From a virus: a stretch of 50,413 bases of DNA. Positions 3,812 through 46,731 of this stretch are shown one piece after another (within the stretch, counting starts at the first letter, position 1; every line of letters starts with the position of its first letter). The translations under genes and the position numbers were made by a program. The stretch covers positions 1-50,413 of the IMG/VR virus record IMGVR_UViG_3300050821_013501. One strand, written 5' to 3'. Under the pieces are notes generated by a model that saw nothing but the letters and a program-made list of their open reading frames with translations, ran no database searches and was not told the DNA's origin.

Positions 3812-5191
3812 ATGTCTAACGTCCCCTATATCGCAACAACCGAAGCCGTCACGGTTCATATCAACGGTCGTCCAAAGAGCCTACGTCTCGATACTGCGCA
3901 AGGTCAAAAGCTCCTCGCTGCACTTCGCAAGAAGGAGCACGATTTCGATGAAATCTGTCTGATCGCAGATATGCCTGCCTATATCGCCAAGTACACGTCT
4001 GGACGTGTTACGGTTGACGAGAAAGACCAACTCTATCTCGATGGCGAGATAGTCGATTTTGGTGTCGCTGGCGTCATCACGCGCATGATCAACGATGGCG
4101 CGGATGTCAGCCACCTGACACTGTTTCTCGAAGATGTAGCCCGGAATCCGGATAAGGAAATCGCCAATCACCTATACCGCTTCCTCGAAGTTGGTGGTCT
4201 GCCGATCACGCCGGATGGTTGCTTCCATGCATTCAAACGTGTTCAAGATGATTATTTCTCCTATCATAGTGGCAGCGAATCGGTCATGGTCATCACGTTT
4301 GACGAAAATGATGTCGTCAAAGATTCAAAGAGCTACGTCGGAAAAATTCCGCATATGGTCGGTTCTATGCTTGTCATGGATCGCACCCTCTGTGATCCCG
4401 ACCGTAATCGGACATGCTCGGTCGGATTGCATGCCTGCTCATTCGACTATCTCCAACATTATATGGGCAACGCTGGCAGAGTCGTCGTCGTCAAAATCAA
4501 GCCGAGCGAAGTTACCGCAATTCCGTCCGACTACAACGATACGAAGTTGCGCTGCTGCGCCATGGAGATCGTTGATGAAATTTCGGCAGAAAGTGCTGCG
4601 GAGCATTTCAAAAAGGTCGTCGAAGACCGTTATACTTCCCAGCCGGAATCGGCAGCAACTGAAGAAGCCGACGAAAATGATCTTACTCTGGGCTGGAGCG
4701 AGGACGATAACGGCTGCGGCGATCCGGATTGCCCTGATTGCTATCCGATTTCCGATATTCCCAATGAGGAAGATGAGGAAGACGAAGAGGAAGCTATTGG
4801 CTTTGTGACCGTCGTGCGTTGGGCACGGGAAGATGCCGAAGAATGTGCGGTAAACGATTCCATCAGTAAAATCTTCGCGTGCGAACACGAAGAAGGCGAA
4901 CACTGGGGCGAAGTTCCAGAGCATCTCGAACGCACTTATATGCTTCACTATGTGGTCTCATACGTCGATAATTTCGAACTGGATGAATATGCCAGCGAGC
5001 GTGCTTACGATGAAGGCGTCGTCGATGGTGAAGCTATCGGTCATGAAGATTTCTCAGGAAGCGACACCAATAACGGATTCCTTCTTTGCACTCTAGACGG
5101 TGCTTCTCAGTCCGAGATACCGGAGGAGCACATGACAGCTTATGATCTTGGGTATGCTGTTGGCTACCTCAACGCATGGAATTTGTTCTAA
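3812..5191 (+). CDS. rIIB: RIIB-like protein with acidic C-terminal extension
   Basis: Partner of the upstream rIIA homologue, 459 aa. The conserved rIIB core is visible: FLEDVARNP, PITPDGCFHAFK, DDYFSYHSG, CSVGLHACS and a K-P-S-E-V...IPSDYNDTKLR segment, ending near residue 275. The remaining 180 residues are strongly acidic (EEDEEDEEE) and carry CGDPDCPDC, an extension that is unusual compared with T4 RIIB. ATG 3812 is chosen because AAAGGA precedes it and the conserved region begins there; the open frame upstream overlaps rIIA. Confidence 0.85.
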   Translation: MSNVPYIATTEAVTVHINGRPKSLRLDTAQGQKLLAALRKKEHDFDEICLIADMPAYIAKYTSGRVTVDEKDQLYLDGEIVDFGVAGVITRMINDGADVSHLTLFLEDVARNPDKEIANHLYRFLEVGGLPITPDGCFHAFKRVQDDYFSYHSGSESVMVITFDENDVVKDSKSYVGKIPHMVGSMLVMDRTLCDPDRNRTCSVGLHACSFDYLQHYMGNAGRVVVVKIKPSEVTAIPSDYNDTKLRCCAMEIVDEISAESAAEHFKKVVEDRYTSQPESAATEEADENDLTLGWSEDDNGCGDPDCPDCYPISDIPNEEDEEDEEEAIGFVTVVRWAREDAEECAVNDSISKIFACEHEEGEHWGEVPEHLERTYMLHYVVSYVDNFELDEYASERAYDEGVVDGEAIGHEDFSGSDTNNGFLLCTLDGASQSEIPEEHMTAYDLGYAVGYLNAWNLF

Positions 5192-15318: not shown

Positions 15319-15390
15319 TTGTAAGGCCGAAAATCATCCTCACGAATGATTCAATCTCACCATGATGAGACCCTAAATATGGCCTTACAA
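15319..15390 (-). ncRNA. Three-way-junction RNA element 1
   Basis: Outer stem TTGTAAGGCC/GGCCTTACAA (10 bp) encloses GTCTCAT-catg-GTGAGAT and AATCAT-tcgtgagg-ATGATT. Element 2 (15437-15508) has the same architecture with changed but still paired bases, so the structure is conserved. It is unlike a tRNA and of unknown function. Confidence 0.7.
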
Positions 15391-15429: not shown

Positions 15430-15436
15430 TATAAGG

Positions 15437-15508
15437 TTTGTAACACGGAAGCTATCCTTCCGAATAGCTCGATCTCACCTTAATGAGACCTCCAAACTGT
15501 GTTACAAA
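15437..15508 (-). ncRNA. Three-way-junction RNA element 2
   Basis: Outer stem TTTGTAACAC/GTGTTACAAA (10 bp) encloses GTCTCA-ttaag-GTGAGAT and AGCTAT-tcggaagg-ATAGCT. It is paralogous to element 1, with compensatory changes in the outer stem and third helix. It lies directly after the encoded CCA of the initiator-like tRNA. Confidence 0.7.
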
Positions 15509-15510
15509 TT

Positions 15511-15590
15511 TGGTTGCGAGGATCGGACTTGCACCGACCTAATTTGCTGGCTTATGAAACCAGACTGGTACTACCTCCAGTCACCTCGCT
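15511..15590 (-). tRNA. Initiator-like tRNA-Met (anticodon CAT)
   Basis: GCGAGG/CCTCGC acceptor with an A1:A72 mismatch and the 3' end CGCAACCA, the same ending as bacterial tRNA-fMet. D-arm ACTGG...CCAGT, anticodon arm CTGGT-TTCATAA-GCCAG, T-arm GTCGG-TGCAAGT-CCGAT. CCA is encoded. The unpaired 1:72 position suggests an initiator, although the anticodon stem lacks three G:C pairs. Confidence 0.8.
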
Positions 15591-15599
15591 TCAAAAACG

Positions 15600-15640
15600 C
15601 GACCGTTTGCGTCATACAGGAACGGCCTTCCTGCACCAAC
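15600..15640 (-). ncRNA. Pseudoknot-like RNA motif, copy A
   Basis: CAGGA-AGGCCGT-TCCTG hairpin whose loop GGCCGT can pair with the downstream ACGGTC (after TATGACGCAA), forming an H-type pseudoknot. Homologous to copy B. Function unknown. Confidence 0.55.
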
Positions 15641-15761
15641 CCAAGATAGAGACAAGCACTATCCGGCGATGACTTTTGGGTCACTCCGTACCTTCTAAGC
15701 TCAGCCGTCAATTAAACGGCGGACGTTTCCATCTAGCTTAGGGCTCGCAGAGTGCCCAAAT

Positions 15762-15803
15762 TCGCTACCGTTTGCGCCACACAGGAGTTACGGCCTTCCT
15801 GCC
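15762..15803 (-). ncRNA. Pseudoknot-like RNA motif, copy B
   Basis: GCAGGAAGGCCGTAACTCCTG followed by TGTGGCGCAAACGGTAGCG repeats copy A with small insertions and keeps the hairpin and the loop-to-downstream complementarity. Several small hairpins lie between 15803 and 15970 (AACCCCGTTGGGGT, ATCTCGCAAGCGAGAT, TGTGTCGAAAGACACA). Confidence 0.55.
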
Positions 15804-15972
15804 CATATCTTATCGTGGCTATGTGTCTTTCGACACAATTCGTTGTCCGTTTTCCCGTGCTAGAGCGATGGACTTCGCTCGTAACTTTCGATCCTCTCGA
15901 TCTCGCTTGCGAGATAATACCCCAACGGGGTTTTAAAAGGTCACCGTCACAGGATCAGCGCAAGCGCTGAAT

Positions 15973-16161
15973 TTGATACTTTCGCCTGATCTCAACTGTC
16001 AGGGCGGCTTTCGATAACCGCTTCGGTCCACCTTGCACTACGCGTCCCCGGATATCGAGGATGGATCGATTTGCACGACCTCTCAGCTTCCCCACATTCC
16101 GCCATTAGCTCCGACTTAGCAGTGTTGCAACACCTCAGTCGAGGTCAGGCGAAAATATCAA
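15973..16161 (-). ncRNA. Structured RNA closed by a 21-bp stem, unidentified
   Basis: The arms 16161-16141 and 15993-15973 pair over 21 positions with one mismatch and one wobble. They enclose about 148 nt with further hairpins (GTGTTGCAACAC, GCGG...CCGC). At 189 nt it is the size of a 6S-type RNA, but the interior does not fold as a simple rod. The 9-mer TCAGGCGAA in the closing stem is shared with the tmRNA coding piece. Confidence 0.55.
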
Positions 16162-16505
16162 GTTGGGTGGTGCTTCCTGTTGCCGCCTGCACCACCCGAA
16201 AGGCCTCCGCAGCTAATTAGGCCGCGAGACGAAGAGCCATCGGCTCGTTGTCGTTGACATTTCTGTCGTTTAATCGAGCGGTAGTGGAAGCTACCCGGAG
16301 ATAAGTCCGTGCTGCGTCAATCGCTTCGCCTGACAATCGAGTCCCAAATCATCCCCCTCAGAAGCACCCCTGACACTGCTACCCGTGGCTTTCGGCCCAT
16401 TAAAGGCGGCGAGGCGCTTTTGGTGGAGATGCCCGGATTCGAACCGGGGTCTTGCCACGACTTACCGACCGCTTTTTACAGCAATCATCTGTCGCTTATA
16501 CCGAC
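16155..16505 (-). ncRNA. ssrA: Permuted two-piece tmRNA
   Basis: The acceptor piece comes first: T-arm CCCGG-TTCGAAT-CCGGG, then CATCTCC, A and encoded CCA ending at 16421. After a 64-nt spacer the coding piece starts at 16356 with GGGGATGATTTGGGACTCGA, which matches the tmRNA 5' consensus. GGGGATG pairs with CATCTCC and gives the diagnostic G3:U70 wobble. TTGTCA (coding) can pair with TGGCAA (acceptor) as P2. The tag frame at 16258-16217 reads V-NDNEPMALRLAA-stop, a typical tmRNA tag with NDN and LAA; the first codon is GTC rather than the usual Ala. A GGGTGGTGC/GCACCACCC hairpin follows. The outer ends are approximate. Permuted tmRNAs are typical of Alphaproteobacteria, so this is probably of host-lineage origin. 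Confidence 0.85.
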
Positions 16506-16506
16506 A

Positions 16507-16995
16507 CTAGGCAGCCCTGTCAAGCTTTGATTTTTTGGCAGCCAGCCATTTTCTCTGGAATTTTTGGCGGCATGTCCGGCATGTTCTTGTACCGTCTTTC
16601 TTATCAATAGTATTTTCTGGCGTCATTTCATGCCCTTCTCGGCATTTCCCACTCGCACGCAGTTTCCAATGCATTTCCTTGCCATTCTCCCGATAAGCCG
16701 CAACACGTCTTCTATTATTTTCGGCGCGTGTTACAATCTCCATATGATCTGGATTTACACATAATTTGTTTCGACATAAATGATCGGGTTCATAGCCGGG
16801 AGCAATTGGTCCATGAATTTGCTCCATGATCCATTTATAAGCACCAACTGTCCTACGCGTGCCATCTGGACGCGTATACCCTATTTTTGAATAACCACGC
16901 CCGCATGTTCCGGCCTGCCATTGCCAGCATCCTGTTACGGGATCGACAATATATTTTTCGTGAAACAGTTCGAGCGTGGTTTTCTTAGTTCGCAT
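16507..16995 (-). CDS. HNH homing endonuclease-type protein
   Basis: 162 aa. The HNH core is DHLCRNKLCVNPDHMEIVT (about residues 71-89) after an N-terminal GCWQWQAGTCGRGYSKIGY segment typical of phage HNH proteins. A C-terminal zinc-ribbon-like CREGHEMTPEN...CRTCRQKFQRKW follows. ATG 16995 overlaps the upstream stop in TAATG. It lies directly upstream of the tmRNA acceptor piece and may be a selfish insertion beside this RNA gene. Stop TAG. Confidence 0.85.
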   Translation of the reverse strand: MRTKKTTLELFHEKYIVDPVTGCWQWQAGTCGRGYSKIGYTRPDGTRRTVGAYKWIMEQIHGPIAPGYEPDHLCRNKLCVNPDHMEIVTRAENNRRRVAAYRENGKEMHWKLRASGKCREGHEMTPENTIDKKDGTRTCRTCRQKFQRKWLAAKKSKLDRAA

Positions 16996-17408
16996 TAGGA
17001 ACGCTTGGAAACCTCGCCAGCTTCCTGCTTCCAACGTTCGAAAGTCTGGAGAAGATCGGTTGGAAGCCCAGCATATCGACCATGTTTTAGGATCATGCGC
17101 TCGATCTGAGCCCAGTCCGGATTGGTATAGCGCTTAGGTTCCATCTGGGTATAAGTACGTCCCCGGAGAAATCCGTAGGCGAGGATGGCATTACGCGTAT
17201 AGGGACGCACGACGGCCTTCCGGTGTTCGCGGAGGCTGTCGCGGGTTGCCCGCAGGCGCACAAGCCATGCATCTTTCTGAGGGTTCTCAGAAAGCTTTGC
17301 ACGTTCGATCTGATCCTTGATCTTGCACTCTTCGCGATGAATGAGTGCGCCTTCGAGGCCGAGCGAAACGGTTTTGATCTTGAGTTGGTGTGATTTGAAA
17401 GGTGTCAT
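16995..17408 (-). CDS. Hypothetical phage protein, 137 aa, helical and basic
   Basis: Unknown function. Helix-rich N-terminal two thirds (LEGALIHREECKIKDQIERA; RLRATRDSLREHRKAVVRPY), then YGFLRGRTYTQMEPKRY, a pattern seen in small phage hypothetical proteins. The stop overlaps the HNH start (TAATG). The ribosome site is weak. Confidence 0.65.
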   Translation of the reverse strand: MTPFKSHQLKIKTVSLGLEGALIHREECKIKDQIERAKLSENPQKDAWLVRLRATRDSLREHRKAVVRPYTRNAILAYGFLRGRTYTQMEPKRYTNPDWAQIERMILKHGRYAGLPTDLLQTFERWKQEAGEVSKRS

Positions 17409-17521: not shown

Positions 17522-17595
17522 TGGTGCCCCGCGTCGGGTTTGAACCGACATAGGCGATTTTAGAGATCGCTGCTTTACCAGTCAGCCAGCGGAGC
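17522..17595 (-). tRNA. tRNA with anticodon CTA (amber-suppressor type)
   Basis: Complete 74-nt cloverleaf: acceptor GCTCCGC/GCGGGGC (7 pairs, one wobble), TG, D-arm GCTGACTGGTAAAGC, anticodon stem GCGAT/ATCGC with loop CTCTAAA (U33, anticodon CTA), 4-nt variable loop, T-arm GTCGG-TTCAAAC-CCGAC, A73 and encoded CCA. CTA reads the UAG stop codon. The amino acid is not evident. It is the first RNA after the promoter at 17613-17641. Confidence 0.85.
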
Positions 17596-34278: not shown

Positions 34279-36978
34279 ATGGCTGTTAGTCCCTCATCTA
34301 TTAAAATTGATCTCTCCCGCGACAGCCTTCTAAACGACTTCACTAAACAGACACTAATCGAGCGCTACATGCTGCCGGGAGAGACTTCTCCACAGCATGC
34401 ATTCGCGCGTGCGTCGGCTGCCTATGCAGATGACGAGGATCATGCACAACGGCTTTATGAAGCTGTTTCGAAGTTGTGGTTCATGTATGCAACACCTATC
34501 CTTTCGAACGGTGGTTCTGAACGCGGTCTTCCCATCTCGTGCTTTTTGAGTGCCGTGTCCGACAGCCGATCAGGTATTTTCGATCACTGGACGGAAACTG
34601 GCTGGCTCTCATCAGTTGGAGGCGGCGTGGGAGGCTATTGGGGATTTCTGCGTGAAGCTGGTAAGGAGACTGCGAAAGGCTCCAAATCTACCGGCATGAT
34701 TCCCTTCGTTGCCGCTGTTGACCGAATTATCCTTTCTGTCTCACAAGGTGGTACTCGTCGAGGAAGTTACGCGGCATATCTCGATATCTCACATCCAGAG
34801 ATCGAAGAATTCATTACGATGCGCAAACCGACTGGCGGCGATCAAAACCGAAAGGCTACCAATCTCCATAACGCGGTCAACATCACAGACGAATTCATGG
34901 AAGCCGTTACAAACAATACCACTTTCAATCTACGCTCTCCAAAGGATGGGACCGTCACCAAAACTGTGCGTGCACGTGATTTATGGCGGCTTCTTATCGA
35001 GACTCGCATGCAGACTGGCGAGCCTTATATGGTCTTCATCGACACTATCAATCGTTCTCTTCCAGAGCCGCAGAAAAAGCTTGGTCTAAAAGTCCATCAA
35101 TCGAATCTCTGCGTTGCACCTTATACACAAATGCTGACTCGCATAGGCCATTTACCTATCGAGGGTCTTGTCGATCAGACAGTCGATATCTGGAATGGTG
35201 ATGACTTTGTTCCAGTCACGATCCGCAAAACAGCGGATGAAGCTGAGCTTGTCCGTGTCTGGTTTGAAGATGGCGATTATGTTGACTGCACTCCGCAACA
35301 TAAATTTCATCTCTTCGATGGGACCATTGTGCAGGCCGGAGAACTGGAAAATGGCAGCACTCTTTGGGGAGCACGCACCGGTATTGCGAATGAATGGAAG
35401 AAATTCCAACTTGACGAAGACCCCCATCATGCCATGGCAATTGCGTTCACGGCTGGGTGGGCGACATTTGCAGGTTTCGAAGACAGTAACCGTTTGGCAG
35501 TTTATGCTCCAGCCGCTCTTCCCGACTCCGAATTAAAGCAGCTTCTGACGGCCTCCGTAAATTCGGAACAGGACGAAGCTGGAATGATGATTCGATATGA
35601 ACCACGGGATATTCCAGCGGGACGTTTACCGCTTACATGGTCTGTCAGTGAACGCCGCGAATGGCTTCGTGGAATTATCATGGCCTCCGGCACAAAAATG
35701 CGTCTCGATGATAGCGATGCCGAATTGCTCTGCATTGGGTCGAATGATGTGGATTTGATTCGAGGAATTCGCCTGATCGCACTGGAACTTGGTTTGTCAC
35801 CGGTGATTCGTTTGACAGATACGATGAACGCCCTGACATTGACACAGGAAGATTTCGACGCACTTGTAGACGGAATTCATCCAAGCCCAATTCACCATGC
35901 GGTTGTATGCGATGTGCAACCTCTTCCATTTCGTCTCGAAACCTATTGCGCAACGGAGCCAAAAACCGGTCGCCTTACTTTCAATGGCTATATCACCGGG
36001 AATTGCACCGAGATCACGCTTCCGACCGGTGTGGATAAATTCGACAAGATGCGTACTGCGGTCTGCTGCTTGTCGAGCGTGAATGCGGAAAAGTTCGATG
36101 AATGGCGTTACGATCCTCAGTTTCTTGAGGACCTGTTCCGCATGCTCGATAACGCGTTGAACGCTTTCATCTCGGATGCGCCTCCAGAATTGCATAATGC
36201 AGTTTATAGTGCCATGCGGGAGCGCTCTGTTGGCCTTGGTGTGCTCGGCTTTCAATCTTATTTGCAGGCAAAAGGATTTTCCCTTGAATCTCCACAGGCC
36301 AGATTATTAAACCTCGATCTCTTTACTTATCTTCGTGCCGAAGCAAACCGCATCTCACTGAAACTCGGCGAAGAACGCGGCGAAGCACCGGATATGGAGG
36401 GTACAGGGGAACGATTTGCGCATAAACTCGCTGTGGCCCCAAATGCTTCTTCTTCGATCCTGTGCGGAGGAACATCACCCTCAATCGAGCCTCACCGTGC
36501 TAATGCTTTCCTACACAAAACATTGTCAGGATCGTTCCCGGTAAAGAACCCATATCTGTCAAAAGCCCTTCAGAAGCTCGATCTGGACAATGACGCAACG
36601 TGGCAGAGTATCGTCGCCAATGAAGGTTCGGTTCAGCATCTCGACATTCCTGACGATATAAAGGTAATCTTCAAGACGGCGACCGAATTGGATCAGATGG
36701 CTCTTGTTCAGTTGGCAGCAGACCGCGCGCCATATATCTGTCAGGCACAATCGCTGAATTTGTTCTTCGAGCATAATGCCGACGCAAAAGAGATCACTAA
36801 GGCACACTACAAAGCGTGGGAAATGGGTGTGAAGTCTCTTTATTATCTGAGATCGACGACGCCGTCACGTGCGGAGAATACGAATAAGAAAGTTGAACGC
36901 ATGACAATGGCGGAAAATTTTGTTGTCGAGGATGGTAGCGGTAAGCAGGCAGATGACTGTCTAGCGTGTCAAGGTTAA
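34279..36978 (+). CDS. nrdA: Ribonucleotide reductase large subunit with intein
   Basis: 899 aa including a 298-aa intein, so the mature subunit is about 600 aa. The host protein shows class I motifs: MYATPILSNGG, ISCFLSAVSDS, HNAVNITDEFM, CCLSSVNAEKFDEW, NASSSILCGGTSPS and the C-terminal redox pair in DDCLACQG. The intein occupies residues 278-575, interrupting HQSNL-CTEIT; spliced, the host sequence reads SNLCTEI. It forms deoxynucleotides with the NrdB subunit encoded downstream. The intein should splice out before activity is possible. Confidence 0.9.
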   Translation: MAVSPSSIKIDLSRDSLLNDFTKQTLIERYMLPGETSPQHAFARASAAYADDEDHAQRLYEAVSKLWFMYATPILSNGGSERGLPISCFLSAVSDSRSGIFDHWTETGWLSSVGGGVGGYWGFLREAGKETAKGSKSTGMIPFVAAVDRIILSVSQGGTRRGSYAAYLDISHPEIEEFITMRKPTGGDQNRKATNLHNAVNITDEFMEAVTNNTTFNLRSPKDGTVTKTVRARDLWRLLIETRMQTGEPYMVFIDTINRSLPEPQKKLGLKVHQSNLCVAPYTQMLTRIGHLPIEGLVDQTVDIWNGDDFVPVTIRKTADEAELVRVWFEDGDYVDCTPQHKFHLFDGTIVQAGELENGSTLWGARTGIANEWKKFQLDEDPHHAMAIAFTAGWATFAGFEDSNRLAVYAPAALPDSELKQLLTASVNSEQDEAGMMIRYEPRDIPAGRLPLTWSVSERREWLRGIIMASGTKMRLDDSDAELLCIGSNDVDLIRGIRLIALELGLSPVIRLTDTMNALTLTQEDFDALVDGIHPSPIHHAVVCDVQPLPFRLETYCATEPKTGRLTFNGYITGNCTEITLPTGVDKFDKMRTAVCCLSSVNAEKFDEWRYDPQFLEDLFRMLDNALNAFISDAPPELHNAVYSAMRERSVGLGVLGFQSYLQAKGFSLESPQARLLNLDLFTYLRAEANRISLKLGEERGEAPDMEGTGERFAHKLAVAPNASSSILCGGTSPSIEPHRANAFLHKTLSGSFPVKNPYLSKALQKLDLDNDATWQSIVANEGSVQHLDIPDDIKVIFKTATELDQMALVQLAADRAPYICQAQSLNLFFEHNADAKEITKAHYKAWEMGVKSLYYLRSTTPSRAENTNKKVERMTMAENFVVEDGSGKQADDCLACQG
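35110..36003 (+). mobile_element. Intein with degenerate LAGLIDADG-like domain
   Basis: Starts with Cys (CVAPYTQMLTRIGHLPIEGL, block A) and has CTPQHKFHL (block B, Thr and His) and LTFNGYITGN (blocks F/G) before host Cys+1. The penultimate residue is Gly, not His. The middle holds remnants of a LAGLIDADG domain (FTAGWATFAGFED; WLRGIIMASGTKM; GSNDVDLIRGIRLIALELG) in which the acidic catalytic residues of DG blocks appear lost. It probably still splices but no longer homes. Confidence 0.85.
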
Positions 36979-43778: not shown

Positions 43779-44250
43779 CTAGAGTCAGCTTTTCCATGGT
43801 GGCTATGTGTTCTTCTTCCCACTCCTCTCGGGCCTCAAGTACGGCCTCGTCGATCATGTGCTCAACAAAGCGATCCATGGTGGCTATGTGTTCTTCTTCC
43901 CACTCCTCTCGGGCCTCAAGTACGGCCTCGTCGATCATGTGCTCAACAAAGCGATCCATCGCGGAAATCACTTCCGAAGCAAAATAGTTTGTCTTCGAAA
44001 GCAGACCACCTGTTACATGGCAGTAGACAAGAGAGACCTGCTCCAGCAAAAACTTATAATCATTGAGTTCGTTCTGAACGTCTTGCGCAAGTGCGCCTTC
44101 AGGATAGACAAATTTGTTCCAGAACTCAGCCGACATCAGCCGCCGAGTCGTTCCGATCAATTTCTGAGCCTCTTCCGGAGTCAAGAGAAGACCAGTCTCG
44201 GTTATGCGTCGTTCGATCTGACTGAGTTCGTCATGGGAAATGGCGCTCAT
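43771..44250 (-). CDS. Protein with perfect 27-aa tandem duplication
   Basis: 159 aa. The N-terminal part is helical (ISHDELSQIERRITETGLLLTPEEAQKLIGTTRRLM). Residues about 99-152 consist of two identical copies of a 27-aa unit (MDRFVEHMIDEAVLEAREEWEEEHIAT), which comes from an 81-bp DNA duplication. The helical acidic repeat can form a longer coiled coil. Unknown function. The start overlaps the NAMPT stop (ATGA). Confidence 0.7.
   Translation of the reverse strand: MSAISHDELSQIERRITETGLLLTPEEAQKLIGTTRRLMSAEFWNKFVYPEGALAQDVQNELNDYKFLLEQVSLVYCHVTGGLLSKTNYFASEVISAMDRFVEHMIDEAVLEAREEWEEEHIATMDRFVEHMIDEAVLEAREEWEEEHIATMEKLTLDD
43793..43954. repeat. Perfect 81-bp tandem duplication (two copies)
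   Basis: 43793-43873 and 43874-43954 are identical and in frame, 27 codons each. Exact identity implies a recent event. Confidence 0.9.
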
Positions 44251-45671
44251 AGTTGAGAGTCCACAAGCCTGCGAATGTCCTCCAAAATCGCTGCGTTGAG
44301 AACGTCGCCGTTTAGGTAACGGATACCGAGGAGATCATCGGCGAATTCGGTATCACCAAATCTGCGTCCGACTAGCGTGTGTCCATACCCATCTGGACGA
44401 ACAGTAAATCTCCCACGCTTGGATTTTTTACCCGGATCGGTGATTGGGTCTTTGAAAATCTCCATCTGTGAGCCGTCTTCCATCAAATATGTGGAAGCTT
44501 TCATAGCCCATCGGTCGGTATCGCGGTCCAGTTTTGCGGCAGCAATTCCACCACCAGCACCTGTCAACACACAGTCCGCTGCGATTTTCATATCCTTCGC
44601 GATCTGATTTGGCTCTGTAATGGTGTCCTCATTCATCCCATCGGCCCAGAGAGCTTTCATGTTCAAGTTCAATACGTCGTAGCCCTTAGAATTTTTGCGT
44701 GCGCCGACACCTTGATACAAAGTCGCAAGAAATTGTGGCAACACGTCATAGCGTTCTCCGGAATCTGGACGCCCGACGATACTGAGATTTTTGTTTGCTA
44801 TGATCGCTTGCCGATCCCCCCGGCAGAGCTTCTTGGCGAACTCGAAGATATTCCAAGTGTCACCGACCATCGAAAGGATGGAATTAGGCAGCGCTTTTTC
44901 GAGACAGTTGTCGATGTAGCCGTCGTCGTCGTGCACCCATCCGCTTGCAATACTGTGTTCGGTCGCCGCCACAGAAAATGCCGACATTTCGTGGAAATAG
45001 TAATAATTTGCATGACGGATTCCGAGCATGTTATCGGAACCTTGAAACATGAAGCAAAATACTGCGCCTGCAATCTTGGAATGATCGTCGCCGAAAACTC
45101 CGCGCGATGAGAAGTCAAGAACTGCAAAAGGCGAAATCGGGTTATCGCTTGTTTCGTCGTAAAACGGCTTGAGACGCTGCTTCATACGAAAGACGCGAGT
45201 CGCGATAGAGCATGCGGGCCAAACATTCCGCATCAGCATGGTCTCTTTGTAGCTCGTTAATGGCGCAAGAACCTTCCCGCCATGGTTCTGTACGGTAACC
45301 ATCGGTGTATGCTTGGGAACGAGGAGACCTTCAGGCAGTGCACGGATTTCGAGAGGAAGCTTTCTATCCCATTTATTGACGATCTCATCCCACATATTCT
45401 TGTTGAAATAAGAGGGAAAGCCAAAATGCTTCGCGAAGAATTCTCCTGCCTCCTCGATCTCCCAATCTTGCACGGGTTGAGCAATTTTTTCGTAAAGAAG
45501 AGGTTGAAGACCTGCCATCATGATCGTGTCATGCTCGCCGCCACGCGACTCGATAAAGCTGTAGACGCTTTTGATGCCCTCACGATAGAACATCCAATGA
45601 GGCACTTTATAACTATCCGCGTCGATGATCGAATTGTACGGTTGTGGCTTAAGATAGGTGGGCAGGCTCAT
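44247..45671 (-). CDS. nadV: Nicotinamide phosphoribosyltransferase (NAMPT)
   Basis: 474 aa. Full-length type II NAMPT: DADSYKVPHWMFYREGIKSVYSFIESRGG, SSRGVFGDDHSKIAGA, the conserved SVAATEHS, VGDTWNIFE, IVGRPDSGE and GAGGGIAAAK match the family. It makes NMN from nicotinamide and PRPP. With NadM it forms a two-step NAD+ salvage route that lets a phage rebuild NAD+ after host immune NADases (NARP2-type pathway). It lies 10 nt after nadM and is translated from the same message. Confidence 0.9.
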   Translation of the reverse strand: MSLPTYLKPQPYNSIIDADSYKVPHWMFYREGIKSVYSFIESRGGEHDTIMMAGLQPLLYEKIAQPVQDWEIEEAGEFFAKHFGFPSYFNKNMWDEIVNKWDRKLPLEIRALPEGLLVPKHTPMVTVQNHGGKVLAPLTSYKETMLMRNVWPACSIATRVFRMKQRLKPFYDETSDNPISPFAVLDFSSRGVFGDDHSKIAGAVFCFMFQGSDNMLGIRHANYYYFHEMSAFSVAATEHSIASGWVHDDDGYIDNCLEKALPNSILSMVGDTWNIFEFAKKLCRGDRQAIIANKNLSIVGRPDSGERYDVLPQFLATLYQGVGARKNSKGYDVLNLNMKALWADGMNEDTITEPNQIAKDMKIAADCVLTGAGGGIAAAKLDRDTDRWAMKASTYLMEDGSQMEIFKDPITDPGKKSKRGRFTVRPDGYGHTLVGRRFGDTEFADDLLGIRYLNGDVLNAAILEDIRRLVDSQL

Positions 45672-45681
45672 AAAACTTCCT

Positions 45682-46731
45682 TCATAGATACGTCGAAATC
45701 ATCTTCTGAACTATCCAGAAATGATCCTCGAACATGTTGTGTGACCGTAGCTCGCTGAGTGGCGTCCACATCGCGATCTCGGCATCATCAGCCCCAAGGA
45801 CGGATGGAAATTCGTCATAATCCGGAAGCTTGAAGAGGAATGCTTCTGTGATGACATGCGCCCTGCACGACCGCGCCGGATCGTCGAACCGGCGACGCCC
45901 ACGAAAGCCTTGCCAAATTCGTTGGACACGAAGGTCTTTATTTTTGACATGAAAATGAATGCGGGTTTCTTCGAAGAGTTCGCGGATCACAGCAGCGTCA
46001 CAGGTCTCACCGTATTCTACGTGACCACCCGGCAAGGCAAGCATTCCTTTGCCCGGGGCATCCTTTCTGATCACAGTTAGGAGGTGCCCGGACTGAATCA
46101 CAACAGGATCGACAGTCTGGAATGGACCTTTACCCCATCTCTTACGATATTCGACTTCGAATGTCTTCTCGGCACAAATATCTTTGAAATGATGTCCGCG
46201 AGTGAATTCGATTAGAAATTCGAGCGAAGATTTTGGCAGCCAGTTCTTGGCGAGCATATCGAACCATCCTTCGCTGCCAAAATAGACTTCGCGGATTTCC
46301 GTTGCATTGATATGCAACGAATGAATTTTAGGCTGAATAAATCCCCATTGCGGAAACTGCTTCAAATAGAAACTCGACTGGTCGCGTTCATGGCCGGTGA
46401 TTGCGACATCTTTATCGTTGCCAAAAGGGAACAACGATTTTATGTGGTTTTGAACGGATGTTATCCAGCTTTGAAGTTCATACGGATTGTCTGAAAGAGG
46501 AATGATTTCGACTTGCCCTTCGACGCCTTTATCACACATGGCTTGCATGATCATACTCTCACGTTCTTCATAGGAGAACGGATTACGCGTAGTGCGCGAA
46601 AGGTTAGACGATCCAACCATCACAAGAAGCCGGTCAGCATTGGATAATGCATCAAGCATGACCTGCTCGTGCCCGCGATGGAAAGGCTGAAAGCGTCCAA
46701 TAAGGACGGCTAGCTTGTATGGCTTTGGCAT
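45682..46731 (-). CDS. nadM: Bifunctional NMN adenylyltransferase / Nudix protein
   Basis: 349 aa. N-terminal nucleotidyltransferase: LIGRFQPFHRGHE (HxGH box, about 11-22) and the C-terminal GSSNLSRTTRNPFSYEER. The C-terminal Nudix domain has PGGHVEYGETCDAAVIRELFEET (about 231-255). It converts NMN to NAD+, while the Nudix part may hydrolyse ADP-ribose or other NAD-derived products. This is the NadM-Nudix architecture common in phages. Promoter at 46760-46788. Confidence 0.9.
   Translation of the reverse strand: MPKPYKLAVLIGRFQPFHRGHEQVMLDALSNADRLLVMVGSSNLSRTTRNPFSYEERESMIMQAMCDKGVEGQVEIIPLSDNPYELQSWITSVQNHIKSLFPFGNDKDVAITGHERDQSSFYLKQFPQWGFIQPKIHSLHINATEIREVYFGSEGWFDMLAKNWLPKSSLEFLIEFTRGHHFKDICAEKTFEVEYRKRWGKGPFQTVDPVVIQSGHLLTVIRKDAPGKGMLALPGGHVEYGETCDAAVIRELFEETRIHFHVKNKDLRVQRIWQGFRGRRRFDDPARSCRAHVITEAFLFKLPDYDEFPSVLGADDAEIAMWTPLSELRSHNMFEDHFWIVQKMISTYL

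Follow-up and report, generated by a model that had tools for sequence, protein, structure and literature searches.

A permuted two-piece tmRNA with a predicted valine resume codon in phiCbK-like phages

The window, a whole virus record of 50 kb (50,413 nt), covers part of the genome of a large phiCbK-like phage of alphaproteobacteria (Dolichocephalovirinae). Its minus strand carries an intact gene for a permuted two-piece tmRNA (16488-16166). We consider it probable that the gene gives a working tmRNA that rescues ribosomes and resumes translation on GUC (valine). This reading draws on the integrity of the gene, its conservation and its upstream signal, and would entail transcription, processing, charging and tagging of the kind set out below.

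An intact permuted tmRNA gene

The gene matched the covariance model RF04321 (tmRNA_permuted) at 16483-16217 with 86.5 bits (E 2.7e-15, cut-off 47 bits) and RF01849 (alpha_tmRNA) at 16527-16166 with 53.7 bits (cut-off 50 bits). An earlier note on this DNA had proposed a phage-encoded permuted two-piece tmRNA, without giving its minus-strand orientation, and had named tmRNA and alpha-tmRNA models as the check; both models scored over their cut-offs, and the full architecture bears the proposal out. Chance is ruled out by the E-values of the models and by the presence of the same gene at the same place in relatives. The permuted tmRNA is a confirmed feature of the window.

The acceptor piece lies upstream of the coding piece, as had been stated. 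It spans 16421-16488 (minus strand), contains the T arm, the 3' acceptor strand and an encoded CCA (16423-16421), and is delimited by the models and by pairing, its 5' end being inferred from the promoter. A 64-nt intervening sequence follows (16357-16420, minus strand), defined by the spacing between CCA and G1 and presumably removed from the precursor as in the family. The coding piece (16166-16356, minus strand), whose G1 is 16356 and whose end is given by the alpha_tmRNA match reaching to 16166, comprises the 5' acceptor strand GGGGATG, the D loop, the PK1 region, the tag frame and, 3' of the tag stop, an GGCAACAG element typical of alphaproteobacterial tmRNA. The acceptor stem GGGGATG/CATCTCC is paired at 7/7 positions with G3:U70 present, and the T stem at 5/5. 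The tag reading frame GTC-AAC-GAC-AAC...GCG-GCC-TAA (16217-16258, minus strand) reads V-NDNEPMALRLAA, with the start placed at GTC by an upstream signal that has A at -4. GTC (16258-16256) directly precedes the tag NDNEPMALRLAA-stop (16255-16217), which is intact and ends in LRLAA before its TAA stop (16219-16217). The G3:U70 pair and the intact tag, both claimed before, thus hold. ARAGORN also called a permuted tmRNA, at 16513-16054, with a tag differing from the model-based one; this tag, AEAFRVVQAATGSTTQLDIFA, was discarded as probably lying in the wrong frame.

A sigma-70-like promoter for the tmRNA, TTGACA-17 nt-TATAAG (16495-16523, minus strand), has one mismatch in 12 and is shared with the relatives: TTGACA is exact in all ten phages and the second hexamer follows after 17-18 nt (the spacing in the relative G002 was read by eye), while the spacer sequence diverges. 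A strict promoter scan did not return the window promoter because the last base of its hexamer is G, not T. The end of an HNH endonuclease gene (phrog_826; 16507-17034, minus strand) falls within this promoter region and overlaps the -35 box.

Relatives of the phage and conservation of the gene

The shared genes and their order around the tmRNA place the window in the Dolichocephalovirinae. Its A1-like protein shares 50-57% identity with the counterparts in Caulobacter and Brevundimonas phages belonging to this subfamily, and its gene order (helicase, tRNA-Met, tmRNA, tRNA-Cys, methylase, A1, DNA polymerase) matches that of Brevundimonas phage vB_BgoS-Bajun, in which helicase, tRNA-Met, tRNA-Met, tmRNA, tRNA-Cys, methylase and A1 protein succeed one another and the tmRNA is annotated. 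A DNA search of the annotated collection for near-identical phages found none, its matches being weak and confined to the T arm, and a search for relatives via the helicase was likewise negative.

The permuted model detected a tmRNA over the cut-off in 9/9 long relatives; only one relative record, a fragment of 12 kb, gave no match. In phiCbK, the tmRNA was found by the model and is absent from the annotation at that place. The giant Brevundimonas phages were reported to lack a tmRNA according to ARAGORN (PMC10070969); contrary to that report, Domovoi and Bambus scored 60.2 and 57.9 bits with the permuted model.

The stems are conserved as structures. The acceptor strand varies among the phages (GGGGATG, GGGGGCG, GGGGCCG, GGGGCGG) and its partner strand co-varies, so that 7/7 positions are always paired; G3:U70 is kept in the window and in all compared sequences, and the T stems change in sequence between phages with pairing retained. 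Pairing was checked sequence by sequence, as the MAFFT alignment misplaced the D-loop side. Despite large sequence change, all ten phages keep the tag open and end it in a Clp-type LAA, FAA or IAA. A decaying passenger copy or an attachment-site relic acquired from a host would fit the common use of tmRNA genes as integration sites, but we regard such an origin as highly improbable, since the gene is of full length with all stems paired, has a promoter, is kept in nine relatives with no partial copy, and bears a tag systematically unlike host tags. The idea of a pseudogene was discarded.

The resume codon

In the host set, 30/30 alphaproteobacterial tmRNAs read NNA-NNU-GCN-AAY-GAY-AAY and resume on alanine, in agreement with the GCG resume codon of Caulobacter (PMC1168896). 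The phiCbK-like set, which was gathered by model and kinship rather than by motif, reads NNA-AAU/ACU-GUC-(0-3 codons)-AAY-GAY-AAY in 10/10 members, with valine at the corresponding position. Between GUC and Asn-Asp-Asn, there is no codon in the window, one in G002, two in phiCbK, BL57, BL10, Rogue and Bajun, and three in BL9, Domovoi and Bambus. The window thus has no alanine resume codon; it has GTC, as have its nine relatives, and with zero extra codons the predicted tag is VNDNEPMALRLAA. Published resume codons are almost all Ala, with some Gly and a few Asp, Arg, Ser and Glu, so that Ala is usual and not defining (PMC1168896); no report of a valine resume codon was found in the literature accessible to us.

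The frame-setting signal points to GUC. In E. coli, the frame is set by A86, at -4, whose replacement by U abolishes activity (PMC2481249). By this rule, which derives from a one-piece tmRNA, A(-4) is found at GUC in the window and in all 41 Val-type sequences, and at the following codon in 0/41, where the phiCbK-like phages have U. When 59 Ala-resume tmRNAs alone were used to build a profile of positions -6 to -1, GUC outscored all in-frame codons after it in 41/41 Val-type sequences. An upstream codon outscored GUC in four of the 41, the window included; there, GAC (16267-16265), 9 nt upstream of GUC, scored 3.7 against 1.7 for GUC, and this GAC is not conserved. The context CTA-AAT-GTC-AAC-GAC in one viral contig (L288) equals the Caulobacter context CTA-AAT-GCG-AAC-GAT with the Ala codon exchanged. 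The distance from PK1 agrees with resumption on GUC and is only supportive: in a rough search that frequently gave other answers, GUC was 10-14 nt away in most phages, and GCN 10-12 nt away in those hosts whose PK1 is clear. The suggestion of GTC as the likely resume codon, made in the earlier note for the window, is thus supported and extends to the whole phage subfamily. Judged from these sequences, a valine resume codon appears to be a property of the phage tmRNA lineage and not an accident of the window genome.

The third base of GUC is invariant, whereas that of the Ala codons after GUC varies; a scan for AAATGT[A/G/T] yielded no genuine variant, and one GTT match (L440) was discarded because no tmRNA surrounds it. 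This invariance leaves room for GUC as the end of the upstream signal (cf. UAGUC|GCA in E. coli) of a working tmRNA that resumes on the next codon, Asn in the window, Ala in phiCbK and Glu in Domovoi. Conservation of GUC in all three bases, the GUC at the -1 triplet of E. coli and an Ala codon directly after GUC in several relatives speak for this possibility. We nevertheless consider it unlikely, because U would then stand at -4, the change that abolishes E. coli activity at A86 (PMC2481249), the profile at that register falls to -8.4 in the window, and the resume residue would vary among Ala, Asn and Glu inside one subfamily. The third base of resume codons is conserved in other groups too (GCA in 29 and GCG in 22 of 59, split mostly by group). 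Resumption on GUC is the preferred reading.

Distribution of Val-type tmRNAs

The hits of a first scan with the motif GTCAACGACAACGA were largely spurious and were sifted by structure and tag end; viral contigs were also scanned twice for AAATGTC-type motifs, and survivors of the earlier scan were added. Genuine permuted tmRNAs were present in 34/36 tested records, with tags beginning VNDN or VAANDN, and part of the Val-type tmRNAs occur in phages with T4-like genes. These scans are uninformative on frequency because the motif was presupposed. A T-arm scan in which it was not presupposed gave 29 readable phage permuted tmRNAs, all resuming on Ala. No relative of the window DNA polymerase was found in 33 Val-type records, most of which are fragments, by a search run without a positive control. 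A tmRNA tree, drawn from too short a sequence and with bootstrap support too unsettled to decide between one and several origins of Val, required five changes for the Val label. On a contig of 499,572 bases (L046), a permuted tmRNA at 3865-4222 reads TTTTA-ATT-GTC-AAC-GAC-AAC, with the tag VNDNDIRMAIAA. A nearby gene resembles one for a bacterial GAF/histidine kinase, so a Val-resume tmRNA may occur in a bacterial chromosome too.

Neighbouring features of the window

Directly downstream of the tmRNA, a non-coding stretch of ~575 nt (15590-16165, minus strand) is predicted to fold very stably, with an MFE of -220.5 (z -5.15, 0/100 shuffles), and is closed by a 29-bp long-range stem (15970-15998/16136-16164). 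Rfam gave nothing for it at E values of up to 1. A 49-nt motif, GCAGGAAGGCCGTAACTCCTGTG..GCGCAAACGGT, is shared by the window and G002 at the same place with 90% identity (L003, 3425-3473) and occurs nowhere else in the viral collection. In phiCbK, the same non-coding island holds a GOLLD RNA. The stretch is a candidate for a new phage RNA of the large ornate type. A three-way-junction RNA of ~73 nt is present twice (15436-15508 and 15319-15390, minus strand; z -5.7 and -5.3). Both copies have a 10-bp closing stem and arms of 8 and 9 bp; they differ by compensatory changes in their stems, flank a duplicated 5' half of tRNA-Met and had no match in Rfam.

An amber-suppressor-type tRNA (anticodon CUA, called as tRNA-Pyl) lies near the tmRNA at 17522-17595, and a CUA tRNA is likewise close to the tmRNA in two other phages with Val-type tmRNAs (L261, 119-196; L264, 10961-11039). 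Since read-through by suppressors causes ribosomes to run off the ends of mRNAs, the CUA tRNA and the tmRNA could conceivably be linked in function. TAG is the stop codon in 12 of 55 hand-picked window ORFs.

Elsewhere in the window, a nicotinamide phosphoribosyltransferase gene (PF18127/PF04095) adjoins a nucleotidyltransferase-Nudix fusion (44247-46731, minus strand), which together are a probable phage NAD salvage pair. In the ribonucleotide reductase large subunit (34279-36978), the profile matches are split by an insert of ~290 residues that starts with Cys and ends before Asn-Cys, probably an intein.

Proposed function

From its sequence, the gene is most simply read as taking part, with host SmpB, in ordinary trans-translation in infected cells. 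A single precursor would be transcribed from the gene's own host-type promoter and, as in the family, processed to yield the acceptor and coding pieces, which would pair and be charged with alanine via G3:U70. No phage SmpB was found in the ten phage records searched, so host SmpB would have to serve the phage tmRNA. With it, the paired pieces would enter ribosomes stalled on broken mRNA, and resumption on GUC would mean that the stalled proteins carry A(from charging)-VNDNEPMALRLAA. The LAA-type end would send the tagged proteins to Clp proteases, and the ribosomes would be freed. The further suggestion of the earlier note, that the phage copy may replace host tmRNA or add altered tags during host mRNA decay, is a conjecture that goes beyond these sequence findings.

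Phage tmRNAs may also act against the host system. The tmRNA-like gene of mycobacteriophage DS6A inhibits endogenous tmRNA (PMC11915505), and a counteracting role has been suggested for phage Lacusarx; by analogy, the present tmRNA could serve chiefly to blunt host trans-translation by competition and not as a rescue factor. DS6A, however, has no tag frame, whereas the open tag is retained throughout the ten phages here, and we think a competitor role very unlikely.

A wider reading is that resumption on valine marks phage two-piece tmRNAs across a broad lineage, with a variable number of codons inserted before Asn-Asp-Asn, and that the changed tag start alters handling by host adaptors such as SspB so that the phage steers the destruction of stalled proteins. 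We hold this to be doubtful, and an effect of the altered first tag residue on adaptor binding is a guess. If true, the phage would choose which stalled proteins are destroyed during infection. Consistent valine after an unchanged frame-setting signal amounts to a natural experiment on the choice of the first tag codon, the same lineage informs how tag starts affect proteolysis, and phiCbK with Caulobacter, whose two-piece tmRNA is well studied, offers a laboratory pair for testing.

Comparison with known systems

The window tmRNA resembles the alphaproteobacterial two-piece tmRNA (Caulobacter type; RF01849/RF04321) in its permuted order, the acceptor piece with CCA, G3:U70, T arm, D loop, NDN tag core, hydrophobic-AA end, 3' GGCAACAG element and upstream NNA-NNU signal. 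Unlike the Caulobacter type, it has GUC (Val) in place of GCN (Ala) as resume codon, a tag tail EPMALRLAA in place of the host FAEEFAVAA, a longer spacer, and a score of 86.5 against 117-154 bits.

Within its subfamily, it shares the permuted form, GUC and the TTGACA promoter with the copies of Bajun, phiCbK, CcrRogue, CcrBL10, CcrBL9, BL57, Bambus and Domovoi, and it occupies the same locus where this was checked (Bajun and phiCbK). The Bajun-type copies have two to three extra codons between GUC and Asn-Asp-Asn (one in G002), and the window has none. The OM43 phage Melnitz and other marine phages likewise encode permuted tmRNAs of the alphaproteobacterial type in virulent phages; the Melnitz tmRNA is linked to a glutamine riboswitch and lies outside the phiCbK group (PMC9004378). 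Since phage two-piece tmRNAs have been published (PMC9004378, PMC11915505) and the Bajun copy is annotated, the presence of the gene alone is not new, and the advance lies in the predicted valine-resume variant and its clade-wide distribution.
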